From Actinomyces wuliandei (GTDB lineage: Bacteria > Actinomycetota > Actinomycetes > Actinomycetales > Actinomycetaceae), in NCBI RefSeq assembly GCF_004010955.1, contig NZ_CP025227.1, positions 2,666,001 to 2,730,000 of the forward strand: a DNA stretch of 64,000 bases, written 5' to 3'. This document shows positions 21,735-38,603 of the stretch, piece by piece. Position 1 is the stretch's first letter, and the number at the start of each line of letters is the position of its first letter. The notes under the pieces are model-generated. The model ran no database searches and was not told where the DNA came from. It saw nothing but the letters and a program-made list of their open reading frames with translations. A program made the translations under genes and the position numbers.

Positions 21735-21850
21735 GGGCCGCGGGTGCCGTGCTGCACGGGGCACGACTGCGTGCTGGCGCGCCTCCTGGGCCAGTAGGCT
21801 GCCGGGACCGGGCCTCCCTGCCTCTATAGATTGCTGGAGTGCCAGCCTTC

Positions 21851-23620: not shown

Positions 23621-23630
23621 GGATGGCTAC

Positions 23631-24245
23631 ATGAGCGCTGCGGACAGCATGCCAGCCCTCGCCGTTAGGGGGGTAAGTAAACGCTTCGGGCGGACGGAGG
23701 TGTTCAGGGATGTCTCCTTCACGGTGGCGCCTGGGCGGTCCCTGGCCGTTGTGGGGGCGAACGGGTGCGGCAAGTCGACGTTGCTGAAGATCTGCGCCGG
23801 CCTCGTGTCCCCTACCGCCGGTGAGGTGCGTGTGACGGGACGGCTCGGGTACTGCCCGCAGCACGCGGACCTCGCGCCCCGTCTCACGGCGCAGGATCAC
23901 ATTACGTGGCTCGGCAGTGGTCTCGGCCTCGCCGCCGCCGTGGCACGACGTCAAGGAGAGCAGATCGCCTCTGCCCTGCACATGAGGGACTCCCGCAGAC
24001 AGGTTCGCAGGTTGAGTGGCGGTACGGCGCAGAAGGTCAACCTGGTCTGCTCGATGATGGGCGGGCCAGATGTCCTGCTCCTGGACGAGCCGTACCAGGG
24101 CTTTGACGAGGGTGCCTACCTGGACTTCTGGGACCTCGTGGAGTCCTGGTGCAGGCAGGGGATCGCGGTGGTCGTCGTGACGCACATGCTGCGCGAGCTG
24201 CACCGTGTGGACTTCGTCCTCGACCTGGGGGGAAGGGCCGAGTGA
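23631..24245 (+). CDS. ABC transporter ATP-binding protein
   Basis: 204 residues with a single ABC domain: Walker A VGANGCGKST (near residue 43), Q-loop region LGYCPQHADLAP, signature LSGGTAQKVNL, Walker B VLLLDEPYQGFD and the switch His in VVVTHM. The start is uncertain: ATG 23631 or GTG 23619, both within reach of the GGAGGAG at 23611. It is translationally coupled to the membrane gene (TGATG). The ATPase is drug-exporter-like (two separate genes, one ATPase, one membrane protein). As the first pair at the edge of the phosphoglycolipid-type cluster it is a good candidate for product export or self-protection; that is inference from position. Moenomycin clusters also carry ABC transporters. 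Confidence 0.88.
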   Translation: MSAADSMPALAVRGVSKRFGRTEVFRDVSFTVAPGRSLAVVGANGCGKSTLLKICAGLVSPTAGEVRVTGRLGYCPQHADLAPRLTAQDHITWLGSGLGLAAAVARRQGEQIASALHMRDSRRQVRRLSGGTAQKVNLVCSMMGGPDVLLLDEPYQGFDEGAYLDFWDLVESWCRQGIAVVVVTHMLRELHRVDFVLDLGGRAE

Positions 24246-24976
24246 TGCGAGTGCTCCGTACCACCGAGATGACCCTGCGCGACCTCTTCGGCCGAGGGTG
24301 GGTCCTGGTGCTGCTCATGCTGCTGCCGCTCGTTTTCTACGCTGCGCGACGCTCGGACGCCGGCTGGCAGGCCTTGCGCATGGGCTGCATGGGGCTGGCG
24401 TGGGCTGTGGGGACGGTCTCCCTGTTCGCACAGCAAACCGTGAGAGACTTGGACCCGCGCCTGCGTCTGGCCGGGGTCCGCGCATGGGAGATCTTCGTGG
24501 GCCGGCTGCTGGCATTGTTGGGGGTCGCCCTCGTCGTCGGCTCGCTATACGCCGTAGGGCTCGTGCTCGACCAGGACGTCCTGCACGGGTGGTCGGTCGT
24601 CGCGGCCCTCCTGCTGTCCGCAGCGCTCCCCGTTCCGGTGGGGATGGTCGTGGGACTCCTGATCCCCCGCGAGCTTGAGGGGATGCTGGTCCTCATCATG
24701 GTCGTCGGTCTGCAGACGATCGTGGACCCGGGGCGTTCCCTGGCCGAGATACTGCCTCTGTGGTCAACCCGTAACCTCCTGAACTACGGTGTCGACGGGG
24801 TGGGTAGTCTGGAGGACTCGTGGCTGCATGCCGCTGTCTACGGTGGTGCATGTCTGCTGGTGGGTTTCGTGGTGTCGGCTGTTCGCCTGCGCAGGCGCAG
24901 GCACCTGGTGCTTCTGCCACGAGCGCAGGCCTTGCCGGGCTCCGGAGCCCGGACAGCCGGCCCGTCCAGCGGCTAA
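24245..24976 (+). CDS. ABC transporter membrane protein
   Basis: 243 residues. The ATG at 24245 overlaps the TGA of the ATPase gene by one base. Six hydrophobic segments can be traced: GWVLVLLMLLPLVFY, LRMGCMGLAWAVGTVSLFA, LLALLGVALVVGSLYAVGLV, WSVVAALLLSAALPVPVGMV, GMLVLIMVVGLQTIV and AAVYGGACLLVGFVVSAVR, as expected for an ABC-2-like exporter half. The C-terminal 35 residues are basic and probably cytoplasmic. No sequence motif reveals the substrate. Together with the preceding ATPase it would form an exporter; position suggests the cluster's own product. Confidence 0.85.
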   Translation: MRVLRTTEMTLRDLFGRGWVLVLLMLLPLVFYAARRSDAGWQALRMGCMGLAWAVGTVSLFAQQTVRDLDPRLRLAGVRAWEIFVGRLLALLGVALVVGSLYAVGLVLDQDVLHGWSVVAALLLSAALPVPVGMVVGLLIPRELEGMLVLIMVVGLQTIVDPGRSLAEILPLWSTRNLLNYGVDGVGSLEDSWLHAAVYGGACLLVGFVVSAVRLRRRRHLVLLPRAQALPGSGARTAGPSSG

Positions 24977-25053
24977 GAGGACCGGGTACCCGTGGCCCTG
25001 GCCAGAGGTGTCGGCGCGCATGACGCCGGTCCGTTTCCTCGGAAACTGAGTTG

Positions 25054-26892
25054 ATGTGCGGCCTGGCCGGCGTCGTCGGTGACCCGGACGCACGACAGGG
25101 CCTGGTGGCGATGCTCGCGCGTCTTGTTCATCGTGGACCTGATGGGGAGGGCCGGTGGCATGAGGGCGGCACCGCCCTTGGCCATCGCCCCCCCGTCGTC
25201 GGAGACCTCGGCACCGGAGGCGTGCAGCCCGTCGTCTCCGCCGACGGTTCGCTCGTGCTCGTGTTCGACGGCCAGCTCTGCAACCGCAGGGACCTTCGGC
25301 GGCAGTTCGAGGGCAGGGGGCACAGGTTCACGACCCGGTGCGACGGTGAAATCGTCGTCGCCGCGCTGCAGGAGCACGGAGTGGATGCCCTGCGGCGGTT
25401 CGAGGGCGTGTTCACGCTGGCGTGGTGGGACCGTCGGGCCGGGAGCCTGTGGATGGCTCGCGATCGGGTCGGTGAGAAGCCCCTGTACTACCTCGAGGAC
25501 CGTGGGCGGTTCGCCTTCGCCTCTGAGATCGGTGCCCTGACTGCACTGGGATGGGATGACGGCGGCATAGACCCGGAGGCGGTCGCTCTGCTGCTCTCCC
25601 GGCGGTGTGTACCGTCGCCGTGGACGATCCATCGCCGCATCCGCCAGTTGCCACCCGGCTCGGTGCTGGAGTTGTCGAGAGGCCGCACCCGGATCGCACC
25701 GTACTGGAGCGCCATCGAGGCGGTGACCACGGGCCAGGAGCGTACGCGGATCTCCGACCACTGGGAAGTGGAGCGGGCACTGCGGAGGGCGGTCAGCCGC
25801 CAGCTGGAAGCCGACGTCCCCCTCGGAGTGCTCCTGTCCGGCGGCACGGACTCGTCGCTGGTCGCGGCGCTAGCGGGCGAGCAGCATGACGCCCCTGTCA
25901 CGGCCTTCACCCTTAGTTGGCAGGACCGGGACCTTGATGAGGCCAGTGCCGCCGGGGCCACTGCCAACGCGCTCGGGATGGATCACGTTGTGGTCCCTCT
26001 GAAGGACCCTGAGCTGGTCGACACGGTCCTGGCCGTGCAACGGGTCTTCGGTGAGCCGTTCGCTGACCCGGGCGCGGTGCCCCTGATGGTGCTCTCCGCC
26101 TGTGCGGCTCAGCACGTCACGGCCTGCCTGACAGGTGATGGTGGGGACGAGTGCTTTGGTGGGTACCGTCGATACTCTCGCTTGTCGAGACTCGGACGAC
26201 CGGCGTCCCGTGCGCACGCGCTCCGGCCGCTGGTCGAGCGCCTCCCACGCGGCTTACGCTCGTCACGTCTACGCTTCCTGGGACGTTCCCTGGCGGAGAT
26301 CTACACGCTGGTGAGTGCCTCGTGGGACCCGCTGGTCAGCGGTGAACTGGCGGGGCTCAGCGTGCCACCCTATCCTCCCACGGCAGCCTTCGATGTCAGT
26401 GATCTGAGCGTGCGGAGGATGGCGATGCTGACCGACTTCATGGGATATCTTCCCGACCAGCTCCTCGCTAAGACGGACCGCACCTGTATGGCGAACTCGC
26501 TGGAGGCGCGGGCGCCCCTGCTCGATCCCTGCGTCGTCAACCTGTCCTTCGCCCTCGACGACAGGCTGATCGTGGGCAAGAGGGTCCTGCGGGATATTGT
26601 GGCCTGCCGCCTGCCTCATCTGTCGCGGCAGGCGGTCAAGCGCGGGTTCGAGACCCCTACCGAGCGTTGGCTGCGTGGGCCCTTGCGCAGCCTCGTGTCG
26701 GAGACCATCCGCAAGGAGTCTCTTGAGGCACGGGGCATCGCACGGCCAGAGATCGCGCTGGACATGGTTGCGCGCCAACGTGCAGGCGAGCCCCTGTCGC
26801 GCATCGTATGGCCTCTGCTGATGCTGACGCTCTGGGAGCCGGGCGGCGGGCCGCGTCCCTCGGCGGCCGGTCTCAGCCGCCACGCCCAGTGA
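25054..26892 (+). CDS. Asparagine-synthetase-like amidotransferase (AsnB family), copy 1
   Basis: 612 residues starting MCGLAGVVG, so Cys2 becomes the N-terminal nucleophile of the class II glutamine amidotransferase domain after Met removal. The glutaminase domain has VHRGPDGEG and RCDGEIV, but the residue equivalent to E. coli AsnB Asn74 is Asp (VFDGQLCN) and Glu76 is Gln. The synthetase domain has the pyrophosphate loop SGGTDSS (near residue 268) and TGDGGDECFGGYRR. Such enzymes activate a carboxylate with ATP and amidate it. Inferred role: amidation of a uronic acid or of another carboxylate of the phosphoglycolipid (compare MoeF5/MoeH5 of moenomycin). Its last 20 bases overlap the convergent acetyltransferase gene. 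It lies 77 bases after the exporter genes in the same direction. Confidence 0.9.
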   Translation: MCGLAGVVGDPDARQGLVAMLARLVHRGPDGEGRWHEGGTALGHRPPVVGDLGTGGVQPVVSADGSLVLVFDGQLCNRRDLRRQFEGRGHRFTTRCDGEIVVAALQEHGVDALRRFEGVFTLAWWDRRAGSLWMARDRVGEKPLYYLEDRGRFAFASEIGALTALGWDDGGIDPEAVALLLSRRCVPSPWTIHRRIRQLPPGSVLELSRGRTRIAPYWSAIEAVTTGQERTRISDHWEVERALRRAVSRQLEADVPLGVLLSGGTDSSLVAALAGEQHDAPVTAFTLSWQDRDLDEASAAGATANALGMDHVVVPLKDPELVDTVLAVQRVFGEPFADPGAVPLMVLSACAAQHVTACLTGDGGDECFGGYRRYSRLSRLGRPASRAHALRPLVERLPRGLRSSRLRFLGRSLAEIYTLVSASWDPLVSGELAGLSVPPYPPTAAFDVSDLSVRRMAMLTDFMGYLPDQLLAKTDRTCMANSLEARAPLLDPCVVNLSFALDDRLIVGKRVLRDIVACRLPHLSRQAVKRGFETPTERWLRGPLRSLVSETIRKESLEARGIARPEIALDMVARQRAGEPLSRIVWPLLMLTLWEPGGGPRPSAAGLSRHAQ

Positions 26893-27433
26893 TGACGGCG
26901 GGAAGAGCGCGGGCCTTGCCTCCGGGTGGCACATCACGTGTCACGACGGCATTCGCGCCCACATGTGCATCCTCACCAATAGTGATACCACCAACCACAA
27001 CCGCTCCTGCGCCGAACTCGACCCTGTCGCCGATGACAGGGCAGGCGCCTCCGCGCCGGGCGACACCGATCGTCACATTGTGCCGGAGCAGCACGTGGCT
27101 CCCGAGCACCGCGCCGTCATGAACCACCAATCCAACGCCGTGATCCAGCCGTAGGCCTGACCCCACCCGCGCGCCAGAGCGAAGTTCCACGCCCAGAACG
27201 CCCTCGGTGACGAAGCGATAGGTCGCCACGGTCAGAAGGCGGAGCGGCCGTGGCAGCCTCGAGTCCTGACGGATGGCGTGGGTGGCCCTGAACAGCGGCA
27301 GCACAGCCAAGGCCTTCACGTTGCCCCGGTTGGCCTCCAGGTCGGAACGGATGAGTGCCATAACGGAGGGATCGGCCTTGGTCCCACGGGGCCTCATTGC
27401 CCGACACAGGCGGCCGAACACGCTGAGCGTCAC
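26873..27433 (-). CDS. Hexapeptide-repeat O-acetyltransferase (CysE/serine acetyltransferase-like)
   Basis: 186 residues. The C-terminal half is a left-handed beta-helix with I/V-G-x4 hexapeptide repeats (GARVGSGLRLDHGVGLVVHDG, then IGDRVEFGAGAVVVGG and ITIGEDAHVGANAVVTRDVP). LDHG resembles the catalytic Asp-His of serine acetyltransferases, and LRHNVTIGV the HHGVTLGG stretch. The N-terminal part is shorter than in true CysE and has a helix LPLFRATHAIRQ. It overlaps the GT2 gene by four bases (ATGA), so both are co-expressed. Members of this subfamily often acetylate sugars in polysaccharide loci; here it may acetylate a sugar of the cluster product. A biosynthetic cysteine role cannot be excluded but is less likely in this context. 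Confidence 0.82.
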   Translation of the reverse strand: MTLSVFGRLCRAMRPRGTKADPSVMALIRSDLEANRGNVKALAVLPLFRATHAIRQDSRLPRPLRLLTVATYRFVTEGVLGVELRSGARVGSGLRLDHGVGLVVHDGAVLGSHVLLRHNVTIGVARRGGACPVIGDRVEFGAGAVVVGGITIGEDAHVGANAVVTRDVPPGGKARALPAVITGRGG

Positions 27434-28299
27434 TGTTCCAGCCCGATCTCAAGAACCTCGCCCGGGCGGAGCCCCGTCATGCCTTCGCGCAGCTGGGACA
27501 CGGCACGGGCTTGTTCGGCCCGCTGGGCGGAGGTCACCAAGGAATCGACCAGCCGTGCGACAGCCGGCAGCAACGACTTGTCGCAAGATCGGCTCTCGGC
27601 GTGCGCGAGAAGATCCCGCCAGGCGTGCACGAGACGCTCTACGTAGTCCGCTCGTGCAGGGCTTCCGACTCCGATCGTCCTCGACCGGGAGAGCGAGCCG
27701 TTGCGCCGCCGTCGATGGTACAGTGGCACATCAACGTAACCGAGAGCGTTGCACACGTAAAGAGAGTTGACGATAAAACTGTCGAAGGCGTAAGCCGTGC
27801 CGCCGAAGTAGCCACCAGCAGCAAGCAGGCCCTCTCGTGAGTACAGCCCGTGATGGCGAGCGCGGTCCAGATACCAGTCCGGTCGCAGCGGCGCGCAGAA
27901 TGTGGTGGCGTAGCTCTGGTACAGGCCCTCGTAGAACTGTCCAGACGTGACTCCGACCAACGGGCGACGCATGAGCTCCGCCAGGAGGGTCGCGACCCGA
28001 CACTCCTCCGACCAGTCATCGGCGTCCTGAATGAGGAGCCACCGCGCGTCCGTGGCGGAGCGCAGGACCATGTCATGGATGAAGTAGGGGCCTCGGGAGG
28101 ATGTCAGCCGGGCTCGTTTGAGACGAGGGTCCTTGATCGACGCCAGGACGTCCCACGGCCCGTCGTCGTCCCCGTCACTAACCACGACCACCTCGAGGTC
28201 ATCATAGGTCTGACTCAGCACGCTCCTCACCGCTTGATACAGGTGGTCCGTGCAGTGACGGGTCGGTACGGACACCACAACATGACCTGACAGTTCCAT
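27430..28299 (-). CDS. Family 2 glycosyltransferase
   Basis: 289 residues, ATG at 28299 with AAAGGAT upstream. The GT-A fold is shown by VVVSVPTRHC, AVRSVLSQTYDDLEVVVVSD and the metal-binding QDADDW near residue 93. No membrane helices are evident, so it is cytosolic or peripheral. The C-terminal 60 residues are helical. It is coupled to the acetyltransferase gene and lies downstream of an IS630-type insertion and a gene remnant, which together separate it from the seven-gene operon on the same strand. Inferred role: adds one sugar of the oligosaccharide part of the product. Confidence 0.85.
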   Translation of the reverse strand: MELSGHVVVSVPTRHCTDHLYQAVRSVLSQTYDDLEVVVVSDGDDDGPWDVLASIKDPRLKRARLTSSRGPYFIHDMVLRSATDARWLLIQDADDWSEECRVATLLAELMRRPLVGVTSGQFYEGLYQSYATTFCAPLRPDWYLDRARHHGLYSREGLLAAGGYFGGTAYAFDSFIVNSLYVCNALGYVDVPLYHRRRRNGSLSRSRTIGVGSPARADYVERLVHAWRDLLAHAESRSCDKSLLPAVARLVDSLVTSAQRAEQARAVSQLREGMTGLRPGEVLEIGLEQ

Positions 28300-28529
28300 A
28301 GATATCCTTTCACAATGTCCGTGGCCTCTGAGGCGGATGTGCAGAGCATGCCAGACCGTGTCCGACGGAGCTGGTGCTACGCCGCTCAGTTCGCGCGGTC
28401 GGCACCTGGGTCGGTTGAAGGGCAGATGGTCTCCAGCAGCGTCGTACGGGCCCCGGGTGCGGCGTCAACCCGCTCGAAACCGCCCACCGAGGTCCGAAAA
28501 GCGAGGTCGACTGAAGATGGTGCTGGTAG

Positions 28530-28910
28530 TCCGAAAGGAGGTGGTCCTTAATGCCGCCGACGTGACGCTGCTGCTCAACGGCGTCGTAGGGAGTGCCGCG
28601 CAGGAACATGCGCTGGAGAGGACGTGACGCGCTGCTGTCGGAATCCCAGGTGGCCGGCTGCTCCGCCTCAGCGGTGACGTGGAGCATGGCGATCGGGGTA
28701 GCCCGAGTGCTCCATGAGCAGCTCGGCGTACGAGGGTCTGCAGGGCGCTTGCCAGGCGTTCTGGTAACGGCAGACTGCGGCCCAGACGTCAGCGGCCGAC
28801 TCGAGCTTGCCGAGATCGAGCCACGAGTCGAGTGCGCAGCAGCTGCCGAACGCGCATCCCTCCACATCATGCTGGTCCGCCTTGAGGGCGCCGCCGGAGA
28901 CCGGCAGGTC
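28530..28910 (-). pseudogene. Remnant of an unidentified protein gene in the cluster
   Basis: Two minus-strand frames read like natural protein: about 28670-28905 (starting DLPVSGGALKADQHDVEGCA, later LESAADVWAAVCRYQNAW and SYAELLMEHSG), then after a frame change near 28690, 28536-28640 (QRMFLRGTPYDAV, HVGGIKDHLLSDYQHH). Stops interrupt both and no start with a ribosome site is seen. I cannot name the family. The codon pattern is GC-rich like its neighbours. It lies between the GT2 gene and the IS630-type element, so it may be a lost member of the cluster, perhaps the gene whose 5' part the IS displaced. The surrounding 28300-28530 and 28910-29220 show no further gene. Confidence 0.5.
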
Positions 28911-29221
28911 CTACGTGTACGGTGTGGTGGAGGCGCCCGCCGCAGGCGGGTGGGACCACGTCCCTTGGCATCATCCCAGTGGCCCCTTGGTAGCCCCAGG
29001 GCCAGCGGCGTGCGAGGGGCGCGCAGTGGAGATGCGTCCCCCGTCAGTTGATTGACGCCACATGCGTCACGACTAGTGCCTGACACCTCGACGGACCGAG
29101 TGATCCCAACTGTCCCATGGTGCTGGATGCACGACGCGCCACTCGCTGGTACAACGCCGTGGATCCACAGGATCATGATCTCATCCTCCTCCGACGTGCA
29201 GGACTCGCCGACAACACAGCC

Positions 29222-30329
29222 CTAGTGTCGCGTGCTTGAAGTTGTTGGACGGTTGGCTTTGGTGAGTACCTGTTGGGCGGTCCTGGTCCAGATGAAGGGG
29301 TGGGCACGTTTGTTCCAGGCGTTGACGTAGGTGCGGATGGTGTGGTTGAGGTCCTTGACCGACCTGGACACCGAGCGTCGTAGCGCCTGGCGCTCCAGGA
29401 GGGAGAACCAGACCTCGACGAGGTTCGTCCAGGAGGCGTGGGTGGGGTGAAGTGGACGTGGAAGCGTGGGTTGGCCTCCAGCCAGGCACGTACGTCCTTG
29501 TGCTTGTGGGTGGCGTAGCCGTCCATGATCAGGTGCAGCTCGACGGGGCGGCCCTGCTCGTCGACGGCGTCGTGGTGGGCCCGCTCGACCTGGCGCAGGA
29601 AGGCGAGGAGCTCCTGGTGGCGGTGCCTGGGCCTGAGCGCCGCAGTGACCCGGCCGGTGGCGACCTCCAGGGCGGCGAACAGGGTGGTGGTGCCGTGCCG
29701 GTGGTAGTCGTGGGAGCGGCGCCCGATCCGCCCGGGCTGCATGGGCAGGACCGGAACCGTCCGGTCCAGGGCCTGGATCTGGGACTTCTCGTCCACGCTG
29801 AGCACGATCGCGCTGGCCGGGACGTCCTCGTTCGTGCTCAGGTAGAGCCCGCAGACGTCGGTGACCTTGCCGACGAACTCGGGGGCGGTGGAGAACCGGA
29901 AGGACTGCGCCCGCCAGGGCTGGATCCCGTAGGCCCGCCAGGCCCGGGCCACCGTGGCGGGCGAGACCCCCAGGCGGGGTGCCAGCAGGCGGGTCGACCA
30001 GTGCGTGATCCCCAACGACCTCGGGGGTGGGGTCAGTGTAGCGGCCACCACCCTGGCGTGGTCGACCCGGCGGGGCCGTCCCGGGCGCGGGGCGTCGTCC
30101 AGCCCCTCCAGGCCCCTGGCCAGGTAGCGGCCCCGCCAGGTCACCACCGTCTGGCGCGAGACCCCACGCGCTGGGCGATCTCGGTGTTTGACACGCCCTG
30201 GGCCGCCAGCAGGACGATCCGCGACCTGGCAGCCAGGCCAGACCGCACGCTGCGCGACCGGGTCCAGGACTCAAGGACCTCACGGTTGCCCTCACGCAGC
30301 ACCAGACCAGGAGCAGGACGATTCGCCAT
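29222..30329 (-). pseudogene. IS630-family transposase, two frameshifts
   Basis: The frames combine into an IS630 DDE transposase of about 365 residues: N-terminal helix-turn-helix (LLAAQGVSNTEIAQRVG), TVVTWRGRYLARGLEGL, VARAWRAYGIQPWRAQSF, first Asp in VLSVDEKSQIQALDRT, second in LIMDGYATHKHKDV and Glu in SWTNLVEVWFSLLERQ. One base is missing near 30155 (between QRVG and SRQTVVTW) and one near 29450 (between HFTP and THASW), so the copy as read cannot make one protein. All three catalytic acids are present across the pieces. The DE spacing fits the family. Confidence 0.88.
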
Positions 30330-30384
30330 GCTCCCGATCTTTTCACAACACCAACCGTCCAACAACTAACGACACGCGACACTA
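29223..30384 (-). mobile_element. IS630-type insertion element
   Basis: About 1.16 kb bounded by imperfect inverted repeats of about 33 bases: CTAGTGTCGCGTG at 29222 and its complement CACGCGACACTAG ending at 30385, each followed inwards by GTTGTTGGACGGTTGG or its complement. Both ends sit on TA (29223-29224 and 30383-30384), the usual IS630/Tc1 target duplication. It lies just past the stop of the GT25 gene (30411) and separates the seven-gene operon from the downstream genes. Confidence 0.85.
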
Positions 30385-30410
30385 GGGTTATCAGGTCGCG
30401 GGGTCCGCTC

Positions 30411-31241
30411 TTAAGTCCCACGTTCATGCTGGTGCGCCGAGAGCTTCACGCCTGCCACCGTATGCAGCAGGCGGCCGTACTCTTGCACGGCGTAGTCTCT
30501 CCACCGGCCATACACGTGGTGGTGTCGAAAGTACCGTGAGGAACTAACGATGGACATAACGTTGGTGATGCGTTTCCATACAGGAGCTGAAACTGGTTCC
30601 CATCCTCGCCATGCTCCAATCATTGATGGGTAGTCCCCCGCACGAACCACAACGGGACAAACCTGAAAAAAAGACACCCGTGCGACCCACGGGTATGGCC
30701 AGTCCGCGACACCCGTGACGGGTCCGTCGACTGGGTACGTACTGATCGCCGCACGATTGAGCATATACCCCACCGCCCCCTCGGGCAGGCCCACAGGACG
30801 ACGCAACAACGGGTGCCCGAACTCCGGCAACGTCCTCAGCAGGGGGTCGCGGTAGAGACTCAGCGCTACCGGTCTTGCGAACGACAGGCGCAACAAGCGT
30901 CGCAACACATCCCCGAAGCCCTCCTCAATCTCGGCGTCATCCTCAAGGAATACTCCCCAGGGCTGGTGGTCAGCATGAGCCAGCTCGACCGCCGAGCGGT
31001 GCGCCAACGCTGCGGCAACCTCCCCCGGCAGAAGGGCTCGGTGCTTCAGGACAGCCGATCGGGTGGCATCAACAAAGTCTGCGGGCAGGCGTTCCAGGAG
31101 ATCCCTGGGACAGCCCGGAGTAAGGGTCGGGAGACATCCTTGGGACCGTAGGTCATCAACCAGCCGTGCGTTTCTGAGGCCGTCCGGCGGGCCTACGATG
31201 TATACGTGAGGCGACAACGCCCCTACGGGATGCTGCCTCAT
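30411..31241 (-). CDS. Family 25 (LPS-type) glycosyltransferase
   Basis: 276 residues from the ATG at 31241, which overlaps the stop of the upstream gene (ATGA). The GT25 core is visible as WGVFLEDDAEI near residue 95 (the acidic metal-binding motif), preceded by an arginine/alanine-rich helix and followed by VGYMLNRAAI and VADWPYPW, typical of this family's acceptor half. No membrane segment. GT25 enzymes usually transfer galactose or similar sugars in LPS and glycan synthesis. It is the last gene of the seven-gene operon, directly before the IS630-type insertion. I do not know of a GT25 in the Streptomyces moenomycin pathway, so this gene may make a structural difference in the product. Confidence 0.82.
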   Translation of the reverse strand: MRQHPVGALSPHVYIVGPPDGLRNARLVDDLRSQGCLPTLTPGCPRDLLERLPADFVDATRSAVLKHRALLPGEVAAALAHRSAVELAHADHQPWGVFLEDDAEIEEGFGDVLRRLLRLSFARPVALSLYRDPLLRTLPEFGHPLLRRPVGLPEGAVGYMLNRAAISTYPVDGPVTGVADWPYPWVARVSFFQVCPVVVRAGDYPSMIGAWRGWEPVSAPVWKRITNVMSIVSSSRYFRHHHVYGRWRDYAVQEYGRLLHTVAGVKLSAHQHERGT

Positions 31242-32092
31242 CGGAGGTAAACCGGTCCTAAACCATCTACAGTTGAGGCCAGGTCGTCCAGATGCCATCG
31301 AATAACAGGGGCGAGGTCGATGTCTGGGTCCTGCGCCGACGCAGCGTCGATGCCTTCCCGGGCGCACTTCCTCGCCAAAGCGAGCAGCTCAGCGCGGCGC
31401 TCGTCGTCGTCGCCAACGATATAGCGCAGGTTGCCCACACGTTCATGGTGCTTCTCATAGTCCGCCCAGTCGTCACTCATCGCGATGAGGATGCCCAGCG
31501 CTCGGCCTGCTGCGGCCGCGGAGGCGGCCGCAGCAGGCCGCCCTCCCGCCACGCATGCCAGTCGTCCGTACATGGCGAGAAAATCTCCTCCGAATCCCAA
31601 AGCGGCCTCCGCCCACTCAGCCACCGAGTCGGGCGGCTTGCGTCCGCCTGCCACCATCTGTCGACAGACAGTCAGGAGAGACTCTTCCAAGTCCCTCAGC
31701 AGCTCGACAGCACTTGGGGCGGACCTGGCAAGCAGCGTAGTGGCCCGTTGGCAGAGTGCCACGGACGCACAGACGAGCTCTGTTCGCGACAGGGGGGTGT
31801 CCCCGTCGATTGTGTCGTCCATCAGCTTCATTCCAAAAATATGCATTGCTAGCGCTGGCGCCAGCCTGGTGGTGGTGTCCTCATCGAGCCAGGCACACAT
31901 CATCGTGGGAACCCGAAAGTAACCGCGTGCGTGAAGCACGCGCGCGCAGACTTCGTCGCACGCGTCCACATCATTCAGGACTGCGGTCGTCGCGCGCTGG
32001 CATTCTGCCTGCGCATCGTCCAGGCGGCGACCAAGATCAACCAGGTAGAGGCGATCGGCCGGTTTCAGGTTGCTGGACTGCGCTTCAGTCAC
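31238..32092 (-). CDS. Isoprenyl-diphosphate-synthase-fold prenyltransferase (MoeN5-like role)
   Basis: 284 residues, all-helical. Two Asp-rich motifs are seen: MKLMDDTIDGD near residue 91 and MSDDWADYEKH near residue 210, the positions expected for the first and second DDxxD motifs of trans-prenyl synthases. The GTG start overlaps the carbamoyltransferase stop by four bases. Family knowledge: these enzymes join or modify prenyl diphosphates. In moenomycin biosynthesis MoeN5, of this fold, lengthens the C15 lipid to the C25 moenocinol chain. With the MoeO5-like enzyme in the same operon I infer the same kind of lipid-chain step here. A simple GGPP/FPP synthase supplying substrate is the alternative. 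Confidence 0.82.
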   Translation of the reverse strand: MTEAQSSNLKPADRLYLVDLGRRLDDAQAECQRATTAVLNDVDACDEVCARVLHARGYFRVPTMMCAWLDEDTTTRLAPALAMHIFGMKLMDDTIDGDTPLSRTELVCASVALCQRATTLLARSAPSAVELLRDLEESLLTVCRQMVAGGRKPPDSVAEWAEAALGFGGDFLAMYGRLACVAGGRPAAAASAAAAGRALGILIAMSDDWADYEKHHERVGNLRYIVGDDDERRAELLALARKCAREGIDAASAQDPDIDLAPVIRWHLDDLASTVDGLGPVYLR

Positions 32093-33669
32093 AGCTGCCT
32101 CGCCATGAAGTCGCCACTCACGAACAGATCGACTTCCGTCCGCAGGAAGTCGGTCAGCATGTCGTCGGTGGTCTGAGCGATTGACCGCCCAGCCGAATTG
32201 AGGGAGGTGTTGATCAGTCCAGGCACTCCCGTGCGTGCCGAAAAACTCGTAAGCAGGCTATGCAGCACAGGATCGCTGCTCCGCGACAGGGTCTGCAGGC
32301 GGCTCGTGCCGTCACGATGCCGTGCCTCCGGCATCATTGATGCTGGAATCTTGTAGTCGAATAGCATGTGAGGGCTGTCGGGGCATCCCGGCAGCATCTC
32401 GGCGAACCTCTCCTTCGTCATCAGTCCCGCTAGAGGACGATACCACTCGCGCGCCTTCAGTCTCTGTGAGACCCTCTCCTTCATGCCTTTGATACGAGGA
32501 TTGGCGAGCAGTGACCTGTGGCCGAGTGCTCTCGGCCCGCTCTCTGCGAGACCGTGGTTCATTGCGACGACTCCTCCCTCGGCCAGAACCTCCACCACAG
32601 TGTCCTCGTCGTAGGCGAGCGGAGTCAGGTTGCCTGCACGAAGCGCCTCACGACGCTGCGACGGCGTTTCTTCGACGCCGACGTTGTAAACCGAGAAGGG
32701 AAGCAGGTGGCTTCCTGATAGCAGGTACCAGGCGTAGGCGGCAGCACCCAGAGGGTGACCAGAGTCGTTACATGCCGGGGCGATAGACGGTGCCAGTCCG
32801 TGAATATCTCGCAGCGCAGTGTTGGTGACGATATTCAGGGCGCAACCGCCTCCCAAGGCCAATGCGCCACATTGATGGCGCTCCATCGCCTCAGCTACGG
32901 TCGAGGTGACAGCCTGGGTGAAGAGTTCCTGGAAGGTGCATATTATGTCGGCTCGCCGCTGGAAGCCGTCCGCGAAGTGGGCGTCACGCAGCTCGGTGGC
33001 GACGTCGTAGGCGTAGGAGCGGTCAGTGACGATCCTGTCCGGTATTCCGACCAGTTGTTCGCGAATAGCCTTGTCAGGCTGGCCGTAAGCCGACAACGCC
33101 ATCAGCCTGCCCGCTACGCCGGGGCTGTTCCCCATGTCGAATAGCACGCCCATGCCGGTCCAGCCAAGTCCGCGGCCCCACCAGGGAAGGACGTCGCTGT
33201 CAACCCAGTCCAGGTGGCCGTCGCGATAGGTGAATAGGGCATTCTGCGTGAACTGTCCCTGACCTTCGTTCACAAGGACCAGACAGTCCTCGGCGTATCC
33301 AGAGTAATGGGCGGCCAGCATCGCGTGGCTGACCTCGTGGGTGACCACTATGCACGGTAGTCTCTGCCCCCTGATCTCACACGTCGTCTCCACGTGAAGC
33401 TCGCGCCGTCCCCGCAGGCGCTCCATAACCTGAGCCTGATCTGGCACCGTCGCCGCGGGATGACCGATAGGTGTTGTCAGCGCGACCCAGTCGAAGCTGT
33501 TCAAGGGGTGCTCGGGCTGACTGGTGACAGCGCCTATGGCCAAGTCGACCCTGTGGTCGTATCGACGCCGAGTGAGTCGTTCCGTCTCGATGCTGTAGAT
33601 AACGCGCCCATCCTCGACTACGGCGGCGCCGCTGTCGTGACCAACGGAGTGCAAAGCAAGAACTTTCAT
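32089..33669 (-). CDS. NodU/CmcH-type carbamoyltransferase (MoeM5-like role)
   Basis: 526 residues. N-terminal ASKHA-like domain with LHSVGHDSGAAVVEDG, VVTHEVSHAMLAAHYSG (the metal-binding histidines) and LALGGGCALNIVTN; C-terminal domain with AMNHGLAESGPRALGHRSLL and FARMTGVP-like ARTGVPGLINTSLN, both hallmarks of the carbamoyltransferase C domain. It transfers the carbamoyl group of carbamoyl phosphate to a hydroxyl of a sugar or other acceptor through a carbamoyl-adenylate. Coupled by ATGA overlap to the GT2 gene upstream and to the prenyltransferase gene downstream. In moenomycin MoeM5, of this family, carbamoylates a sugar; the same role fits here. Confidence 0.93.
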   Translation of the reverse strand: MKVLALHSVGHDSGAAVVEDGRVIYSIETERLTRRRYDHRVDLAIGAVTSQPEHPLNSFDWVALTTPIGHPAATVPDQAQVMERLRGRRELHVETTCEIRGQRLPCIVVTHEVSHAMLAAHYSGYAEDCLVLVNEGQGQFTQNALFTYRDGHLDWVDSDVLPWWGRGLGWTGMGVLFDMGNSPGVAGRLMALSAYGQPDKAIREQLVGIPDRIVTDRSYAYDVATELRDAHFADGFQRRADIICTFQELFTQAVTSTVAEAMERHQCGALALGGGCALNIVTNTALRDIHGLAPSIAPACNDSGHPLGAAAYAWYLLSGSHLLPFSVYNVGVEETPSQRREALRAGNLTPLAYDEDTVVEVLAEGGVVAMNHGLAESGPRALGHRSLLANPRIKGMKERVSQRLKAREWYRPLAGLMTKERFAEMLPGCPDSPHMLFDYKIPASMMPEARHRDGTSRLQTLSRSSDPVLHSLLTSFSARTGVPGLINTSLNSAGRSIAQTTDDMLTDFLRTEVDLFVSGDFMARQL

Positions 33670-34790
33670 TTCTCATTCCTCCTTGTTGTGAGAACGGCAT
33701 TCCGATCAGTTGTTGTCGGACTTCCCCACCCGATCCCGCTGAGCGGGAGCCTGAGCAGTCCCCTCAGGGCCAGCTCGCCAGCCAGCAGAAGAGTGCTGAG
33801 GACATGGACCCACGAGTACAGGCAGCGCTCGAGTGTCGTTGTGCTGATCCGCCCCTCCCGCAGGGTGATCGGCAGGAGGCTCACGCCGTTCAGCAGGCAG
33901 TGGTGAAGGTAGCAGCGACTGACCGGCGCCGGCGCCTCCGCCATCAGCAGCAGCTGCCCGATGCGTTGGCGCCGCAGACGTCGCAGAGTTGACGAGAGAG
34001 CGCCTCCGACGATGTAGCTGACCGAGGCTACGGGCACCAGGCGCATCCTCCACAGGGCGTTGTCCGCTGCTGGGTCCAGCAGCTGGAAGCACACCCAACC
34101 GTCGTCGCTGGCGTAGCGCTCCGGTATGCCGCGCCCTATAACGTCTGCCGTTACGATCATCGCGCACCCATGGGGATAGTTCATCGCTGATGGCATGACC
34201 CCCTTGGCTCGCGCCAGCGCGTGGCTTGTCCGGTGAGGTGAGCGATGAGGTACCTTCGTGGCACCTACTGCAGCTGGTGCTGGCATGCGTCGGATCTCCT
34301 GCAGGAGGCGGGTGAGCGTTCCCTGGCCCAGCTCCACGTCGTCGTCGACCCACCCCACGAAGCGCACGGTCGGCGCCGCGAGCCGGAAGGCGGTGTTGAG
34401 CGCTGCGATCTTGCCGGCCCTGGAGGCGACCACGGTGGTGATGTGCTGGTCGTCAAGGGCGAGGAGGGCGTCCCCATGTGACTCGGCGAGCCGTCGCTCC
34501 TGGCTGCTGGCGTACTGGATGACGACGACCAGCGCGACCTGGTACCCCTGCGCCCTCTCTGCGGCGACTGCCTGGGCCGAGAGTTCGCGAGCTGTGTCCG
34601 TGAGCGCCTCTGGCGACAGGCGTGCGGGCCGCGTGGGCAGGACCATCATCACGTCGCCCCCTATCGCGAGCTCGGCGAGCGGGCGCCATCCTCCTGATGC
34701 ACGGTACCGGGCCGTCCTGTCATGGTTGGGTGCGTCGGAGACACCGCGCGAAATCATGCGACGGAGGAGGGCGGTGCCAGCCACCGTCAC
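33666..34790 (-). CDS. Membrane-associated family 2 glycosyltransferase
   Basis: 374 residues, GTG start overlapping the stop of the upstream gene (GTGA). The GT-A domain shows ITTVVASRAGKIAALNTAFR, the metal-binding VGWVDDDVELGQ near residue 145, and YASDDGWVCFQLL. The C-terminal part has basic stretches (LRRLRRQRIGQLL) and hydrophobic helices (SWVHVLSTLLLAGELALRGL), as in GT2 enzymes that act on lipid-linked acceptors at the membrane. Position in the operon between the MoeO5-like and carbamoyltransferase genes points to sugar transfer onto the phosphoglycolipid. The sugar cannot be told from sequence. Confidence 0.85.
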   Translation of the reverse strand: MTVAGTALLRRMISRGVSDAPNHDRTARYRASGGWRPLAELAIGGDVMMVLPTRPARLSPEALTDTARELSAQAVAAERAQGYQVALVVVIQYASSQERRLAESHGDALLALDDQHITTVVASRAGKIAALNTAFRLAAPTVRFVGWVDDDVELGQGTLTRLLQEIRRMPAPAAVGATKVPHRSPHRTSHALARAKGVMPSAMNYPHGCAMIVTADVIGRGIPERYASDDGWVCFQLLDPAADNALWRMRLVPVASVSYIVGGALSSTLRRLRRQRIGQLLLMAEAPAPVSRCYLHHCLLNGVSLLPITLREGRISTTTLERCLYSWVHVLSTLLLAGELALRGLLRLPLSGIGWGSPTTTDRNAVLTTRRNEK

Positions 34791-35566
34791 ACGCTCCTCA
34801 TGGTGAGGAGGTCGGGCATGCGTTCGCGCCAGTCGGGTCCTTCGCAGGCGCCGGCGAACCCCACGAAGTCTGCGCCTGCATCCAGGTGCTGCGCTATGTC
34901 CTCGCCGGTGCGTATGTTGCCGCTTACGAAGATCAGCTGGTCAGGAAGAATCTCCTCTCGGAACATCGTGCACGTCCGTGGGTCCACCCTCTGGTTCCTC
35001 GAGTAGAGGTAGACCATGTCCAGGCCGAGCACTCGCACTAGGCATGCGGTCTCATGGACGGCCTGACGGCTCTCCTCCAGGCTGTACGTGCTCAGGACGG
35101 ACTCGCTCAGGTAGTCCGGGCCCACGGTCAGTGCGGCGCACAGGATGGGCTCGGGAGGCGTGGCGCCGGCCAGGAGGGCGGGCCACCGGGCGGCTGATTC
35201 CAGCAGGCTCTGCCATACGAAGTAGGGGTCCCGACTCATGAGGAGCGCCGGCCACAGGTATCCGGCCGCGCCCTGGACGACGGGAAGGCCTTCTCCGCGG
35301 GTCGGAGGAAAATGCAGGAGAGTCGGCACGGAGACGGCCCTGCTCACCTCTGGGACGAGAGTCGTCATCCGTTCCCTGAAATTGGGGTGGTCGGTGGAGG
35401 CGAGGACGATGAACGGGCTACCGAGTTCCTCTGCCGCCTCCGCCCGTTCCAGAACCTCGTCGTCGGCCAGCTTGAACGGGTCGATGATACAGACTGCCGA
35501 ACCTGTGGTGTCGTGAAGATAGGTCACCAGCTCGCGAGCGCGCCACCCTGGGGTCGCTCCCTGCAT
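34787..35566 (-). CDS. GGGP-synthase-family prenyltransferase (MoeO5-like)
   Basis: 259 residues from the ATG at 35566, which follows the GT28 stop by five bases and has GAAGGAG within that gene's end; the longer frame to 35716 only copies the upstream gene. A TIM-barrel prenyltransferase of the PcrB/GGGPS family is shown by VTYLHDTTGSAVCIIDPFK (phosphate/metal Asp after strand 1), SPFIVLASTDH, VPTLLHFPP, MVYLYSRNQ and FVSGNIRTGEDIAQHLDAGA, the last matching the phosphate loop IVGGGIRS of GGGPS with SGN replacing GGG. In moenomycin biosynthesis MoeO5, of this family, joins farnesyl diphosphate to 3-phosphoglycerate as the first committed step. This gene is the strongest marker that the operon makes a phosphoglycolipid. 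A GGGP- or heptaprenylglyceryl-phosphate role is the alternative. Confidence 0.85.
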   Translation of the reverse strand: MQGATPGWRARELVTYLHDTTGSAVCIIDPFKLADDEVLERAEAAEELGSPFIVLASTDHPNFRERMTTLVPEVSRAVSVPTLLHFPPTRGEGLPVVQGAAGYLWPALLMSRDPYFVWQSLLESAARWPALLAGATPPEPILCAALTVGPDYLSESVLSTYSLEESRQAVHETACLVRVLGLDMVYLYSRNQRVDPRTCTMFREEILPDQLIFVSGNIRTGEDIAQHLDAGADFVGFAGACEGPDWRERMPDLLTMRSV

Positions 35567-35571
35567 CAGGC

Positions 35572-36729
35572 TCACACTCCTTCGAGCAGTAGGTCGTCCG
35601 CGACGCGGAGGACGTTCTCCTCCGCTTGCGCCTGATTCAGCCGGGTGCGGCGAAAACGGTCGCACGCGGCTCGGATCTTGGCGGTCGCGCCGGGTACCCG
35701 CCAGAGATCCATGCACCGGATCAGTTCATCAGCGGAGTACACCGTGCGGCCGATATCGTGTTGCAGGACGAATTCCGGCACCCACTCCTCCTGCGGGAGC
35801 CCAGAGGGAAGCGCGAGGAGCGGAATTCCCTGGTAGGCCGCCTCGTACACGGTTGCGGGGCTCGCCTTGCACACGAGGAAGGAGCCGGGGGAGCACGATG
35901 CTTCTGCGAGGATTTGCAAGTACCGCTCCTGCGGAAGCCGTTCGTGTATCTCCCAGCCCCGCGAGACGAATGGCTTCGACAGAGCGGCCGCCTCGGAGGG
36001 CTGGTCCACGGTGAGGTAGACCACCTTAAAGTCGTCCCGCGCCCGAAGAAGGTGTTCGACGGCGTCAGGGAAGACGGAACCGCCTCGGTTGTTGAATAGC
36101 AGGATGACGGGACGTCGCGGCTCAGGGGAGCTTGCCGGGGCGGGCGGCATCGAACGGGCGGCGAGCAGGGGACCAGTGACACGCACGCTGGCGCGAGGGA
36201 GCGCCACGAGCTGGAGCAGGCGGTCCCTGTTACCCGGCCACGGTACCGAGGTGACGTGAGCGTCCGGGCAGTGGTGCATGGGCATCTCGGCTAGGCCGGG
36301 GTTCGTCACATAGTGCCAGATCTTGGTGCTTAGCCCGGTTTCCCGGACCGCCCACACCAGCATCCTGGCGATGACCCCCTTGGTTGCCACGGCGATGTCG
36401 GGGCGCTGCCGCTCCAGGTCCTGCACCACGCCACCAAGGTCGACCGGGGGAGCCGTCCGGCTGGTCTCGAAGCCCGGCGGCAGCGCCTCCGCGGAACGAC
36501 CTGCGAAGCCCCGGTAGGTCCGGTTGAGTTCCTCCCGGCTGTTCGCCAACAGATTTATATCTCGAATCTCGTGCCCGGCGCTTCGCATGAACGGCACAAG
36601 ATCCTCCGATGCCGTGACGGTGACTGTATGGCGTCCGTCGCGAGCTAGCACTCGGCTGAGGTGGGCAGCCGCCACGAAATTGCCCATGGCGCCCCAGGTG
36701 CGCGCGGCGTACACGTTCACGATAGCCAT
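35572..36729 (-). CDS. MurG/GT28-like glycosyltransferase
   Basis: 385 residues, ATG at 36729 sharing a base with the stop of the amidotransferase gene (TGATG). GT-B fold: N-terminal MAIVNVYAARTWGAMGNFVAAAHLSR, middle TKGVIARMLVWAV, and the nucleotide-sugar-binding C-terminal half (VILLFNNRGGSVFPD, LVCKASPATVYEAAYQGIP, LLALPSGLPQEEW). MurG-like enzymes put a sugar on a lipid-linked acceptor. Several moenomycin glycosyltransferases (for example MoeGT1, 4 and 5) belong to this group; the first of them transfers a uronic acid to the prenyl-phosphoglycerate. Location immediately before the MoeO5-like gene supports an early sugar-addition step. Confidence 0.87.
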   Translation of the reverse strand: MAIVNVYAARTWGAMGNFVAAAHLSRVLARDGRHTVTVTASEDLVPFMRSAGHEIRDINLLANSREELNRTYRGFAGRSAEALPPGFETSRTAPPVDLGGVVQDLERQRPDIAVATKGVIARMLVWAVRETGLSTKIWHYVTNPGLAEMPMHHCPDAHVTSVPWPGNRDRLLQLVALPRASVRVTGPLLAARSMPPAPASSPEPRRPVILLFNNRGGSVFPDAVEHLLRARDDFKVVYLTVDQPSEAAALSKPFVSRGWEIHERLPQERYLQILAEASCSPGSFLVCKASPATVYEAAYQGIPLLALPSGLPQEEWVPEFVLQHDIGRTVYSADELIRCMDLWRVPGATAKIRAACDRFRRTRLNQAQAEENVLRVADDLLLEGV

Positions 36730-38603
36730 CAGGGCGCTGTCACCCCCACTTCGTGCCCTTGAGCGCATCTCTCCCGCCAGGACTCGTACACGAGCAGCGT
36801 CCACAGGATCTGAGTCCGATCCACCCCGCGGACCATGTGGTCCCGGACGAGCTCGTCGACCGTGACAGGGTCCCACCGTCCGGTGTCGCGCAAGCGGTCG
36901 CTGGCCAGCCGTGACTCGACGAGCGGGCGCAAGGGGCCTCGCAGGACCGCCGCCAGGGGGGCACGAAATCCCTGTTTCCTGCGCAGCGCCGGGCGTCGAC
37001 CCACCAGGTCCTTCACCAGCGCTCGCACGGGTGCCTTGCCCAACCGTCCCCTACGGCAGTCCGTGGGGCGGAGCGAGAGCCCCCAGGCGACCAGGTCTTC
37101 ATCCAGGAAAGGTGAACGCGCCTCAACACCATACGCCATGGTCGCGCGATCGATCTTCGTGATAACCAGGTCAACGAGGAAGCGCCGGAATATGCCATCG
37201 CGGGACCGCGCCAGCGCGTCGTCGCGGCTGCGGGCTGTCCGGTGGTCCTCGGGGTGGACGGCAGTGGAGCCGCCGAGGAGCCGGAGGAGGGTCTCGGGTG
37301 GTGCCCCTGCGTGCGCCAGCAGAAATTGCTTGTCCGGCGGGGCGCCGACGCTGGCGGCGATGTCGGCGGCGAACGGGGTGATGGGCAGTCCCAGTCCGCG
37401 CAGCCTCTGGGATCCCAGGGTGAGGAGCGACTGCCTCACGACCGGGTCGGGCACGCGGCGCAGGAGGTGCAGCAGATGCTGTACCTCAAACCACCGGTAC
37501 CCGTAGAACAGCTCGTCCGCGCCGTCACCCGTCAGTACCACCTCTGTGTGACATGAGGCCAGTCGTGCGGCACGGCGTGTCACCACCAGCGACGGGTCGG
37601 CCATGGGCTCGTCCAGGTCCTGCAGGGCCGCTAGCGACTCGTCCGCGAGGTCGTCCACGTTGGGGTGCTCGACGTGGACACGCACACCCATGTCGTCGGC
37701 GAGGAGGCGGATCCAGCGCTCCTCCTCCGACGAGCTCACGACGCAGAAGGCGTCGACCGGTCTTGGGGTTACTCGGTTGAGGAGCGCACCGACTGCCGTC
37801 GAGTCAACCCCTCCGCTGAACAACAGCCCTGGCTGCTGCGACAGTGGGACCGTGCGGCGGTCTATGGCGCGGGCCAGCAGGGTCCGAAGGTCCGGTGCCG
37901 GTGTGCGGGGTGCTGGTCCGGCCCCTCGCACAGACCGGTTGAGTAGCGCGGAGACCTTTCCGTGCCGAATCGTCATCACCTCGCCGGGGCGGATCTTGAA
38001 GACTCCGCGAAAGGCCGTCCCGGGGGCGGGAACGCAGCGTGTGCGCACGTAGTCGGTGAGCACCTCCGTCGCCGGTGGCGGGCTGTCGTGCAGGCCCGAG
38101 CTCAGGGCGTCGAGCACGGAGGCGAAGACCACCTCGCCCCGGTCCCCGGCCTCGGACGGCTGCCAGGTGTAGTAGAGCGGCTTCTTGCCGAGCCGGTCTC
38201 GTGCCAGGGTCAGCTCGGCCCGCTGGGGATCCCATATCGCGATCGAGTACATCCCGCGGAGTCGGGACAGACTCGCAGCACCATGGTGCTTGACCATGAG
38301 TGCTAGGAGGGGGGCCTCCCCGGGGAACCTGGTGTCGGCACCAAACTCCTCTGAGGACAGTTCGCGCGCGTTGTATATCTCACCACTGAATGTGACGGCG
38401 GTGCCATCATCGGCCACCCAGGGCTGTTCCGTCGCGTTGGCATAAAGAGGCAGTGCCATGTGCCCGAAGGCGCCGTGCCCCGGTAGTGTCTGGACGCGGG
38501 AGCCATGGGGCCCTCGCTGCTCCATGCTGTCGAGCATGGCCGTCACGCGCGGCTCAGTGTCAGGTGACAACCTGGGTGTGACTATACCAGCGATTCCGCA
38601 CAT
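36729..38603 (-). CDS. Asparagine-synthetase-like amidotransferase (AsnB family), copy 2
   Basis: 624 residues, starting MCGIAGIVT at the ATG at 38603 with GGGGGAG upstream; the in-frame extension to 38672 is not supported. Cys2 is the expected nucleophile, but the glutaminase pocket is changed: the Asn74 equivalent is Ser (VTFSGEIYN), the Asp98 equivalent is lost (RFPGEAPLL) and RGPDD is RGPHG. The synthetase domain is complete: SGGVDSTAV, EVVLTGDGADELFYGYRW, DRATMAYGVEARSPFLDEDL. First gene of the operon. Inferred role: amide formation on the phosphoglycolipid (MoeF5/MoeH5 role), perhaps with free ammonia or another amine. Asparagine synthesis is unlikely given the context. The promoter should be within 38604-39077. 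Confidence 0.9.
   Translation of the reverse strand: MCGIAGIVTPRLSPDTEPRVTAMLDSMEQRGPHGSRVQTLPGHGAFGHMALPLYANATEQPWVADDGTAVTFSGEIYNARELSSEEFGADTRFPGEAPLLALMVKHHGAASLSRLRGMYSIAIWDPQRAELTLARDRLGKKPLYYTWQPSEAGDRGEVVFASVLDALSSGLHDSPPPATEVLTDYVRTRCVPAPGTAFRGVFKIRPGEVMTIRHGKVSALLNRSVRGAGPAPRTPAPDLRTLLARAIDRRTVPLSQQPGLLFSGGVDSTAVGALLNRVTPRPVDAFCVVSSSEEERWIRLLADDMGVRVHVEHPNVDDLADESLAALQDLDEPMADPSLVVTRRAARLASCHTEVVLTGDGADELFYGYRWFEVQHLLHLLRRVPDPVVRQSLLTLGSQRLRGLGLPITPFAADIAASVGAPPDKQFLLAHAGAPPETLLRLLGGSTAVHPEDHRTARSRDDALARSRDGIFRRFLVDLVITKIDRATMAYGVEARSPFLDEDLVAWGLSLRPTDCRRGRLGKAPVRALVKDLVGRRPALRRKQGFRAPLAAVLRGPLRPLVESRLASDRLRDTGRWDPVTVDELVRDHMVRGVDRTQILWTLLVYESWRERCAQGHEVGVTAP

Follow-up and report, generated by a model that had tools for sequence, protein, structure and literature searches.

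A predicted moenomycin-type phosphoglycolipid biosynthetic cluster in an Actinomycetaceae-like genome

The moenomycin class has so far come mainly from Streptomyces and Actinoplanes. The moe locus of S. viridosporus (ghanaensis) NRRL 2414 (L011) encodes MoeO5, MoeN5, MoeM5, MoeF5, MoeGT1, a MoeGT4-type glycosyltransferase and an ABC transporter pair, together with MoeK5, MoeH5, a second GT4/GT5-type glycosyltransferase, two GT2 enzymes and a Polysacc_synt_2 enzyme. The teichomycin cluster of Actinoplanes is of moenomycin type, and four ABC transporter genes are reported for the moenomycin and teichomycin clusters in PMC6804068. MoeO5 homologues from Actinomyces are already in print, in a figure legend of PMC13096315. 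The open-licence literature searched yielded no description of an Actinomyces or Cellulomonas moe cluster, and no publication on that of the Cellulomonas sp. MAG RM44_bin.080 compared below.

Here we analyzed a window of 64,000 nucleotides, meaning the whole stretch of DNA under study, in which the functions listed first for L011, from MoeO5 to the ABC pair, recur in a compact cluster of ~15 kb. An ORF check found open frames without inner stops for all the genes that an initial annotation had placed there, with two starts moved inward. Seven of them run along the minus strand from 38603 to 30411 in the order AsnB2, GTB, MoeO5, GT2b, MoeM5, MoeN5 and GTx; neighbors share 1 or 4 bases at five of these six boundaries, and GTB and MoeO5 are separated by a 5-base gap, in line with the single operon proposed earlier. 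Comparison with S. viridosporus enzymes and MoeN5 structures returned homologues spanning 28-50% identity, and comparison with moe loci identified counterparts of the MoeF5, GT1, GT4-type, MoeM5 and ABC genes. For the core, chance is ruled out by PDB matches at E 1.8e-60 (MoeO5) and E 2.9e-26 (MoeN5) and by 50% identity to the S. viridosporus enzyme over 527 columns (MoeM5). The moenomycin-type reading of the initial annotation is supported, neither of the two contrary outcomes it had named having been observed; the gene set does depart from that of Streptomyces in points it had overlooked, namely missing MoeK5 and MoeH5, an extra GT25, a second AsnB unlike MoeH5 and an acetyltransferase. Overall, these homologies indicate that the cluster very probably directs formation of a moenomycin-family phosphoglycolipid, a likely peptidoglycan glycosyltransferase inhibitor whose sugar decorations would be fewer than, and in part unlike, those of the Streptomyces products.

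The predicted MoeO5-type prenyl-phosphoglycerate synthase (34787..35566, minus strand), assigned with the help of a tree, is 43% identical to S. viridosporus MoeO5, and its best solved structure is MoeO5 itself (PDB 3vk5, 208 bits), with GGGPS 179 bits behind at 29 bits. One alternative is a membrane-lipid or capsule/exopolysaccharide locus built around a PcrB-type heptaprenylglyceryl phosphate synthase; the initial annotation had named both such a synthase and a capsule/exopolysaccharide locus as contrary to its reading. The protein does share Pfam model PF01884 with PcrB/GGGP synthases, exceeding this broad PcrB cut-off (28.1 versus 23.9), and surface-sugar loci also carry GT2, GT25, AsnB and acetyltransferase genes. 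However, the NCBIfam PcrB/GGGP models gave 48, 38 and 28 bits, far below their cut-offs of 247, 113 and 162, a MoeN5 counterpart is present by fold and sequence, and none of the cluster proteins run against Pfam matched a capsule/exopolysaccharide polymerase or flippase family. We consider such a locus highly improbable. A PF01884 search of the organism's own genome missed the window protein at first look and is uninformative on other PcrB genes.

Within the MoeO5 group, the window branch is long and lies apart from Streptomyces, which favors another alternative, a distant phosphoglycolipid like that of plu3366 from Photorhabdus, with a different acceptor or prenyl donor and a role other than inhibition of peptidoglycan synthesis. 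Plu3366 neither complemented a moeO5 deletion nor restored moenomycin production, according to PMC13096315, and a tree legend there puts the Photorhabdus homologues in one clade with those of Actinoplanes and Actinomyces. The same paper links Tyr199, Tyr201 and Asn230 to the placing of farnesyl and phosphate in MoeO5. Alignment to 3vk5, in the numbering of PMC13096315, equates these residues with Y186, Y188 and N217 of the window protein, all retained; position 230 of Plu3366 is a glycine. The distinction is weak, given that Plu3366 keeps both tyrosines and that TchO5 likewise departs at 230 yet complements (PMC13096315). Counterparts of MoeN5, MoeM5, GT1 and MoeF5 nonetheless accompany the window MoeO5, and a product of the plu3366 kind appears quite unlikely relative to a moenomycin-family compound.

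The predicted MoeN5-type head-to-middle prenyltransferase (31238..32092, minus strand) retains both Asp-rich motifs, and sequence, motif and fold agree on this putative identity, the VIA-align fold list being compatible also with other families. At 28-33% identity, it may use a different prenyl group or a different lipid as substrate. The adjoining predicted MoeM5-type carbamoyltransferase (32089..33669, minus strand) contains both the N- and C-terminal Pfam Carbam_trans domains. The coupled run opens with AsnB2, a predicted MoeF5-type amidotransferase (36729..38603, minus strand) with Pfam GATase_7 and Asn_synthase domains; S. viridosporus MoeF5 is its reciprocal best match, at 37% identity across 624 columns. 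AsnB1 (25054..26892, plus strand), a predicted second amidotransferase by Pfam, is 34% identical to MoeF5 and closer to it than to MoeH5, to which it aligns only partially (31% over 206 columns). Both retain an intact Met-Cys-Gly N-terminus and are the sole matches in the genome; with none in 40 congeners at E <= 1e-20, the pair is private among 41 genomes of the genus.

Four predicted glycosyltransferases complete the set. GTB (35572..36729, minus strand), of MoeGT1 type, is 36% identical to the glycosyltransferase beside moeF5 in L011 as a reciprocal best match, although no Pfam match was found; its true start is 36729 rather than the 36876 of the longest ORF, with a TGATG overlap with the preceding stop. 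GT2b (33666..34790, minus strand; Pfam GT2) resembles the glycosyltransferase adjoining moeM5 in Streptomyces, which we take to be MoeGT4-like, with 38% identity to L011:13280-14563 versus 31% to the paralogue at L011:6375-7583. GT2a (27430..28299, minus strand; Pfam Glycos_transf_2, 49.5 bits) matches GT2 genes weakly (29-39%) in six of 14 loci, and none in L011.

The fourth enzyme, GTx (30411..31241, minus strand), is predicted to be GT25-like from Pfam PF01755, for which, against a cut-off of 24, the window protein scored 13.7, P0023 17.4, P0024 21.1 and a Cellulomonas homologue 28.4 bits. Its start was set inward of the longest ORF, giving an ATGA overlap with the preceding stop; homology and this junction support the predicted frame against codon-bias gene calling, which favored plus-strand ORFs. 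A homologue occurs in one of the 14 named moeO5-bearing genomes, with zero matches in the 12 Streptomyces genomes and the single Actinoplanes genome examined and none in plasmid records. A structure prediction from three sequences (pLDDT 34.6) was unusable for fold search. Separately, a sulfotransferase assignment was rejected, its best profile reaching E 0.0023 over ~118 residues and conflicting with the GT25 result.

A predicted hexapeptide-repeat acetyltransferase (26873..27433, minus strand; Pfam Hexapep) overlaps GT2a by 4 bases. Its best NCBIfam model is EpsC (102.6 bits, short of the cut-off of 150), and relatives occur in 39 of 40 congeners at merely 32-40% identity. In the loci compared, AsnB1 and the acetyltransferase have no clear counterparts and GT2a only weak ones; a pathway role rests on position for the acetyltransferase and GT2a, and on position and rarity for AsnB1. 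One moe-type ABC pair was identified in the window, both genes on the plus strand. The ATP-binding subunit (23619..24245) is 50-55% identical to counterparts in 12 of 14 loci, as is the ABC-2 membrane subunit (24149..24976, start approximate) at 43-45%. As side observations, the acetyltransferase and the IS630 and IS110 genes described next were absent from the initial annotation.

Two IS110-family copies flank the cluster on the minus strand (18175..19372, with an NCBIfam IS110 match to the N-terminal part, and 39078..40275, where IS110 matches fall in two ORFs and the transposase is read in two frames). They are 1198 bp long, 100% identical and directly oriented; plasmid records contained nothing above 90% (406 records matched). 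An IS630-family transposase (29173..30147, minus strand; NCBIfam NF033545, 170 bits against a cut-off of 100), with imperfect arms at 29201-29261 and 30346-30406 (75%), sits between GTx and GT2a and may sever GT2a and the acetyltransferase from the coupled run. These insertions, together with adjacent gntP and glycerate kinase genes that appear split, would fit a moenomycin cluster that was formerly active and has since fallen silent or been disrupted. Yet the frames are open, the Asp motifs and Met-Cys-Gly starts are intact, and three genes recur in other sequenced material (P0007, P0021 and P0023; 82, 80 and 76% identical), and decay seems unlikely.

The identical flanking IS110 copies and the rarity of the genes within the family make horizontal acquisition likely. 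True moeO5 was found in one of 213 genomes of the family, namely this one; a second rarity count gave one of 396. Weak MoeO5 matches (one plus two, of 57-60 residues) fall within frames 344-532 residues long and were left out of the MoeO5 tally. Among 72,556 plasmid records, MoeO5 was present in three, all Streptomyces clavuligerus. With regard to a possible empty site, just one of 40 congeners matches the IclR gene left of the cluster (E <= 1e-30). On transfer, base composition is ambivalent, GC being low from GTx to MoeM5 (0.62-0.63) and near normal in AsnB1 and AsnB2. Consistent with the Actinomycetaceae-like origin first suggested, the 16S gene (44716-46289) matched Actinomyces oris full-length at 91.3% among the 12 listed of 533 plasmid-record matches, where the other 11 are at <=87% and two records at 95-99% lie outside the 12.

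All reactions of the proposed pathway are inferred from homology. MoeO5 would join a farnesyl chain to 3-phosphoglycerate, after which GTB would attach a uronic acid, AsnB2 convert it to the amide and MoeM5 carbamoylate it; the genome has two NDP-sugar dehydrogenases scoring above cut-off, which are a possible uronic acid source. GT2b would attach an N-acetylhexosamine, and MoeN5 a second prenyl group to give a branched lipid of ~C25. GTx and GT2a may take over sugar-chain extension from the absent Streptomyces transferases. Likely roles for the remaining proteins are amidation of a further acid group by AsnB1, O-acetylation of a sugar by the acetyltransferase and product export by the ABC pair. 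MoeK5, a radical-SAM C-methyltransferase present in 13 of the 14 moeO5 loci compared, is not matched by any cluster protein of the window, and the rest of the genome gives just partial alignments at 25-26%; the MoeH5 amide-cap enzyme is matched only by the partial AsnB1 alignment; the uronamide would therefore lack the C-methyl group and the product a MoeH5-type amide cap.

With its compactness, coupled seven-gene run, divergent MoeO5 and MoeN5 and novel genes for sugar tailoring, the cluster could be a practical enzyme source for lipid and sugar variants, and published S. viridosporus moeO5 and moeN5 deletion strains make direct testing feasible. Should the host prove to be a commensal of the mouth or of animals, which its nearest 16S match suggests but does not show, a cell-wall antibiotic of this class would be found inside an animal microbiota.

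Relative to the Streptomyces set, the predicted additions are the GT25-family glycosyltransferase, the second AsnB and the hexapeptide acetyltransferase. The genes of L011 lie in both orientations, whereas the window core runs on one strand; window proteins gave no matches to its MoeK5, two GT2s or Polysacc_synt_2 enzyme, a single window protein answers to its GT4/GT5 pair, and the S. viridosporus genome has no GTx match. The Actinoplanes liguriensis locus (L005) shares the one-strand order AsnB-GT1-...-MoeO5-...-GT4-MoeM5. Unlike the window, it encodes a radical-SAM MoeK5 (81% to S. viridosporus), and in it a squalene-hopene-cyclase-like gene lies between those for GT1 and MoeO5; a GTx match is absent from this genome.

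In Cellulomonas RM44_bin.080, the moeO5 contig (L004) has the order AsnB-GT1-O5-GT4-N5, as in the window, and a second contig (L030) carries GTx (GT25) and the ABC pair closest to that of the window (63% and 53% for the ATP-binding and membrane subunits). As in the window, MoeK5 matches are absent from both; unlike the window, the two contigs have no MoeM5, GT2a or acetyltransferase match but contain the second GT4/GT5-type glycosyltransferase, with a methyltransferase and a polyprenyl synthase nearby. L030 and L004 share 127 exact end bases, and the GT25 gene on a contig with this end in common with the moeO5 contig, together with the tree, points to a putative second, non-Streptomyces branch of moenomycin-type clusters. 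More tentatively, and with somewhat less than even confidence, we propose that this branch spans Actinomyces-like bacteria and Cellulomonas, with GT25 replacing Streptomyces sugar-adding enzymes and the C-methyl step lost, and that its representative here is mobile, bracketed by IS110, and specifies a carbamoylated, O-acetylated, non-methylated peptidoglycan glycosyltransferase inhibitor.

The window spans positions 2666001-2730000 in a genome that forms one contig (3,107,761 bases), and the Actinomycetaceae-like origin proposed in the initial annotation agrees with 16S comparison (91.3% to Actinomyces oris over the whole length, the top match among 533 plasmid records). Seven genes follow one another on the minus strand: the amidotransferase AsnB2 (38603-36729), the MoeGT1-type glycosyltransferase GTB (36729-35572), MoeO5 (35566-34787), the family 2 glycosyltransferase GT2b (34790-33666), MoeM5 (33669-32089), MoeN5 (32092-31238) and the GT25-like glycosyltransferase GTx (31241-30411). 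Five of their junctions are overlaps of 1 or 4 bases and one is a 5-base gap. An ABC pair and a second amidotransferase, AsnB1, occupy the plus strand (23619-26892), and the family 2 glycosyltransferase GT2a and an acetyltransferase, which overlap by 4 bases, lie past an IS630 transposase. Every gene named in the initial annotation is present as an open frame; its inventory lacked the acetyltransferase beside GT2a. Between GT2a and IS630, about 0.9 kb (28300-29200) gave no Pfam match in two scanned ORFs, 28310-29176 (minus) and 28593-29051 (plus).

In a search of solved structures, the 34787-35566 protein scores 208 bits against MoeO5 (3vk5) versus at most 29 bits against geranylgeranylglyceryl phosphate synthases, and it falls far below the cut-offs of curated PcrB/GGGP models, in line with its earlier assignment as MoeO5-like; it passes that of the broad Pfam model. 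A 2026 paper (PMC13096315) ties MoeO5 residues Tyr199, Tyr201 and Asn230 to placement of the farnesyl chain and phosphate; these correspond to Y186, Y188 and N217 by alignment to 3vk5, whose chain numbers run 5 ahead. Since TchO5, a MoeO5 counterpart, differs at position 230 but is functional according to the same paper, N217 alone decides nothing. Relatives of the protein number 14 among 5.8 billion, its own entry included. In a tree of 26 rows (14 from the protein alignment and 12 from moe loci, with L004 and L015 entered as P0011 and P0015), it groups with relatives P0007-P0011 at support 100/99; Streptomyces and Actinoplanes proteins, among others, make up 20 rows that stand apart from this group.

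True moeO5 was found solely in the window genome among 59 near relatives (one weak partial match discounted), 213 genomes of the family (two discounted) and 396 of the order. Two directly oriented, 100% identical IS110-family copies of 1198 bp (18175-19372 and 39078-40275, the right one with its transposase divided between two frames) flank a 19.7-kb segment (19373-39077) in which a gluconate/glycerate gene group accompanies the cluster. GC is 0.62-0.63 in the genes from GTx to MoeM5 versus 0.68-0.73 in seven other window genes, and is not lowered in AsnB1 (0.69) or AsnB2 (0.68). Acquisition of the cluster by transfer is likely, though not proven. The neighbouring glycerate/gluconate group looks, from its sequence, to be in decay: the glycerate kinase ORF (22306-22956) covers only profile positions 12-206 of 372, and lies close to an IclR regulator and a gntP divided over two ORFs. 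Elsewhere, the window carries a 270-bp perfect direct repeat (8933-9202 and 9962-10231, spaced about 1 kb, by self-comparison), a 1519-aa protein (55621-60180) in which Pfam recognises a single domain, MTES_1575 endonuclease-like (residues 1270-1361), and a c-di-AMP riboswitch (62480-62661, minus strand; Rfam RF00379, 58.8 bits).

Comparison with the Streptomyces viridosporus moe proteins gave reciprocal best matches for MoeF5-AsnB2, GT1-GTB, GT4-GT2b, MoeM5, MoeO5, MoeN5 and the ABC ATP-binding subunit; GT4 and GT5 are the names we assume for the S. viridosporus-type glycosyltransferases. Of 14 named moeO5-bearing loci, 12 come from Streptomyces and one each from Actinoplanes and a Cellulomonas MAG. 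At E 1e-4, GTB, GT2b and AsnB2 were each matched in all 14, MoeM5 and MoeN5 in 13 and the ABC pair in 12; the L004 (Cellulomonas) and L005 (Actinoplanes) contigs are short. GT2a weakly matches GT2 genes in six of the other loci. The radical-SAM C-methyltransferase MoeK5 occurs in 13/14 loci, the exception being L004; it has no match among window proteins or on a second contig of that MAG, L030, and the rest of the window genome yields 25-26% partial matches only. Nor do the S. viridosporus amide-cap enzyme MoeH5, Polysacc_synt_2 enzyme and two GT2s have a proper counterpart among window proteins; a 50% relative of the Polysacc_synt_2 enzyme lies elsewhere in the genome, far from the cluster. 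PMC8778134 places moeH5 after, and overlapping, moeGT1.

Overall, a pathway can be proposed in which MoeO5 would couple farnesyl diphosphate to 3-phosphoglycerate, GTB would attach a uronic acid, AsnB2 would amidate and MoeM5 carbamoylate it, GT2b would add an N-acetylhexosamine and MoeN5 a second prenyl group. GTx and GT2a may attach further sugars, AsnB1 may form a second amide and the acetyltransferase may add an acetyl group before putative export by the ABC pair. The sugar steps and their order presumably follow the Streptomyces pathway. Two NDP-sugar dehydrogenases in the genome could supply the uronic acid.

AsnB1 and AsnB2 are the sole proteins of their kind in the genome, and none occurred in 40 congeners (E 1e-20); acetyltransferase relatives occur in 39 of the 40, but at just 32-40% identity. 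GTx has two non-self relatives (76% and 46%) in a protein search among the 7999 candidates sharing most words, and within the 14 whole genomes behind the loci it is present in the Cellulomonas MAG only, whose homologue passes the GT25 Pfam cut-off that the window protein falls below. There, L030 carries GTx together with an ABC pair and a GT5-type glycosyltransferase, and a MoeF5-type gene that begins on L030 continues where L004 opens; the two contigs have an exact 127-base end in common. Therefore, GTx accompanies moe-type genes in two lineages. Also on L030, in the vicinity of the Cellulomonas cluster, are a polyprenyl synthetase gene (12298-13557), possibly for prenyl donor supply, and a methyltransferase gene (8859-10418), possibly for tailoring. 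We found no published account of the window cluster among the open-licence papers listed in literature searches; PMC13096315 already includes Actinomyces MoeO5 homologues in its tree. The L030 ABC pair is 63/53% identical to that of the window, above all 12 ABC pairs of the loci comparison. The moenomycin-type cluster is of a known kind, of which this gene set is a novel variation.
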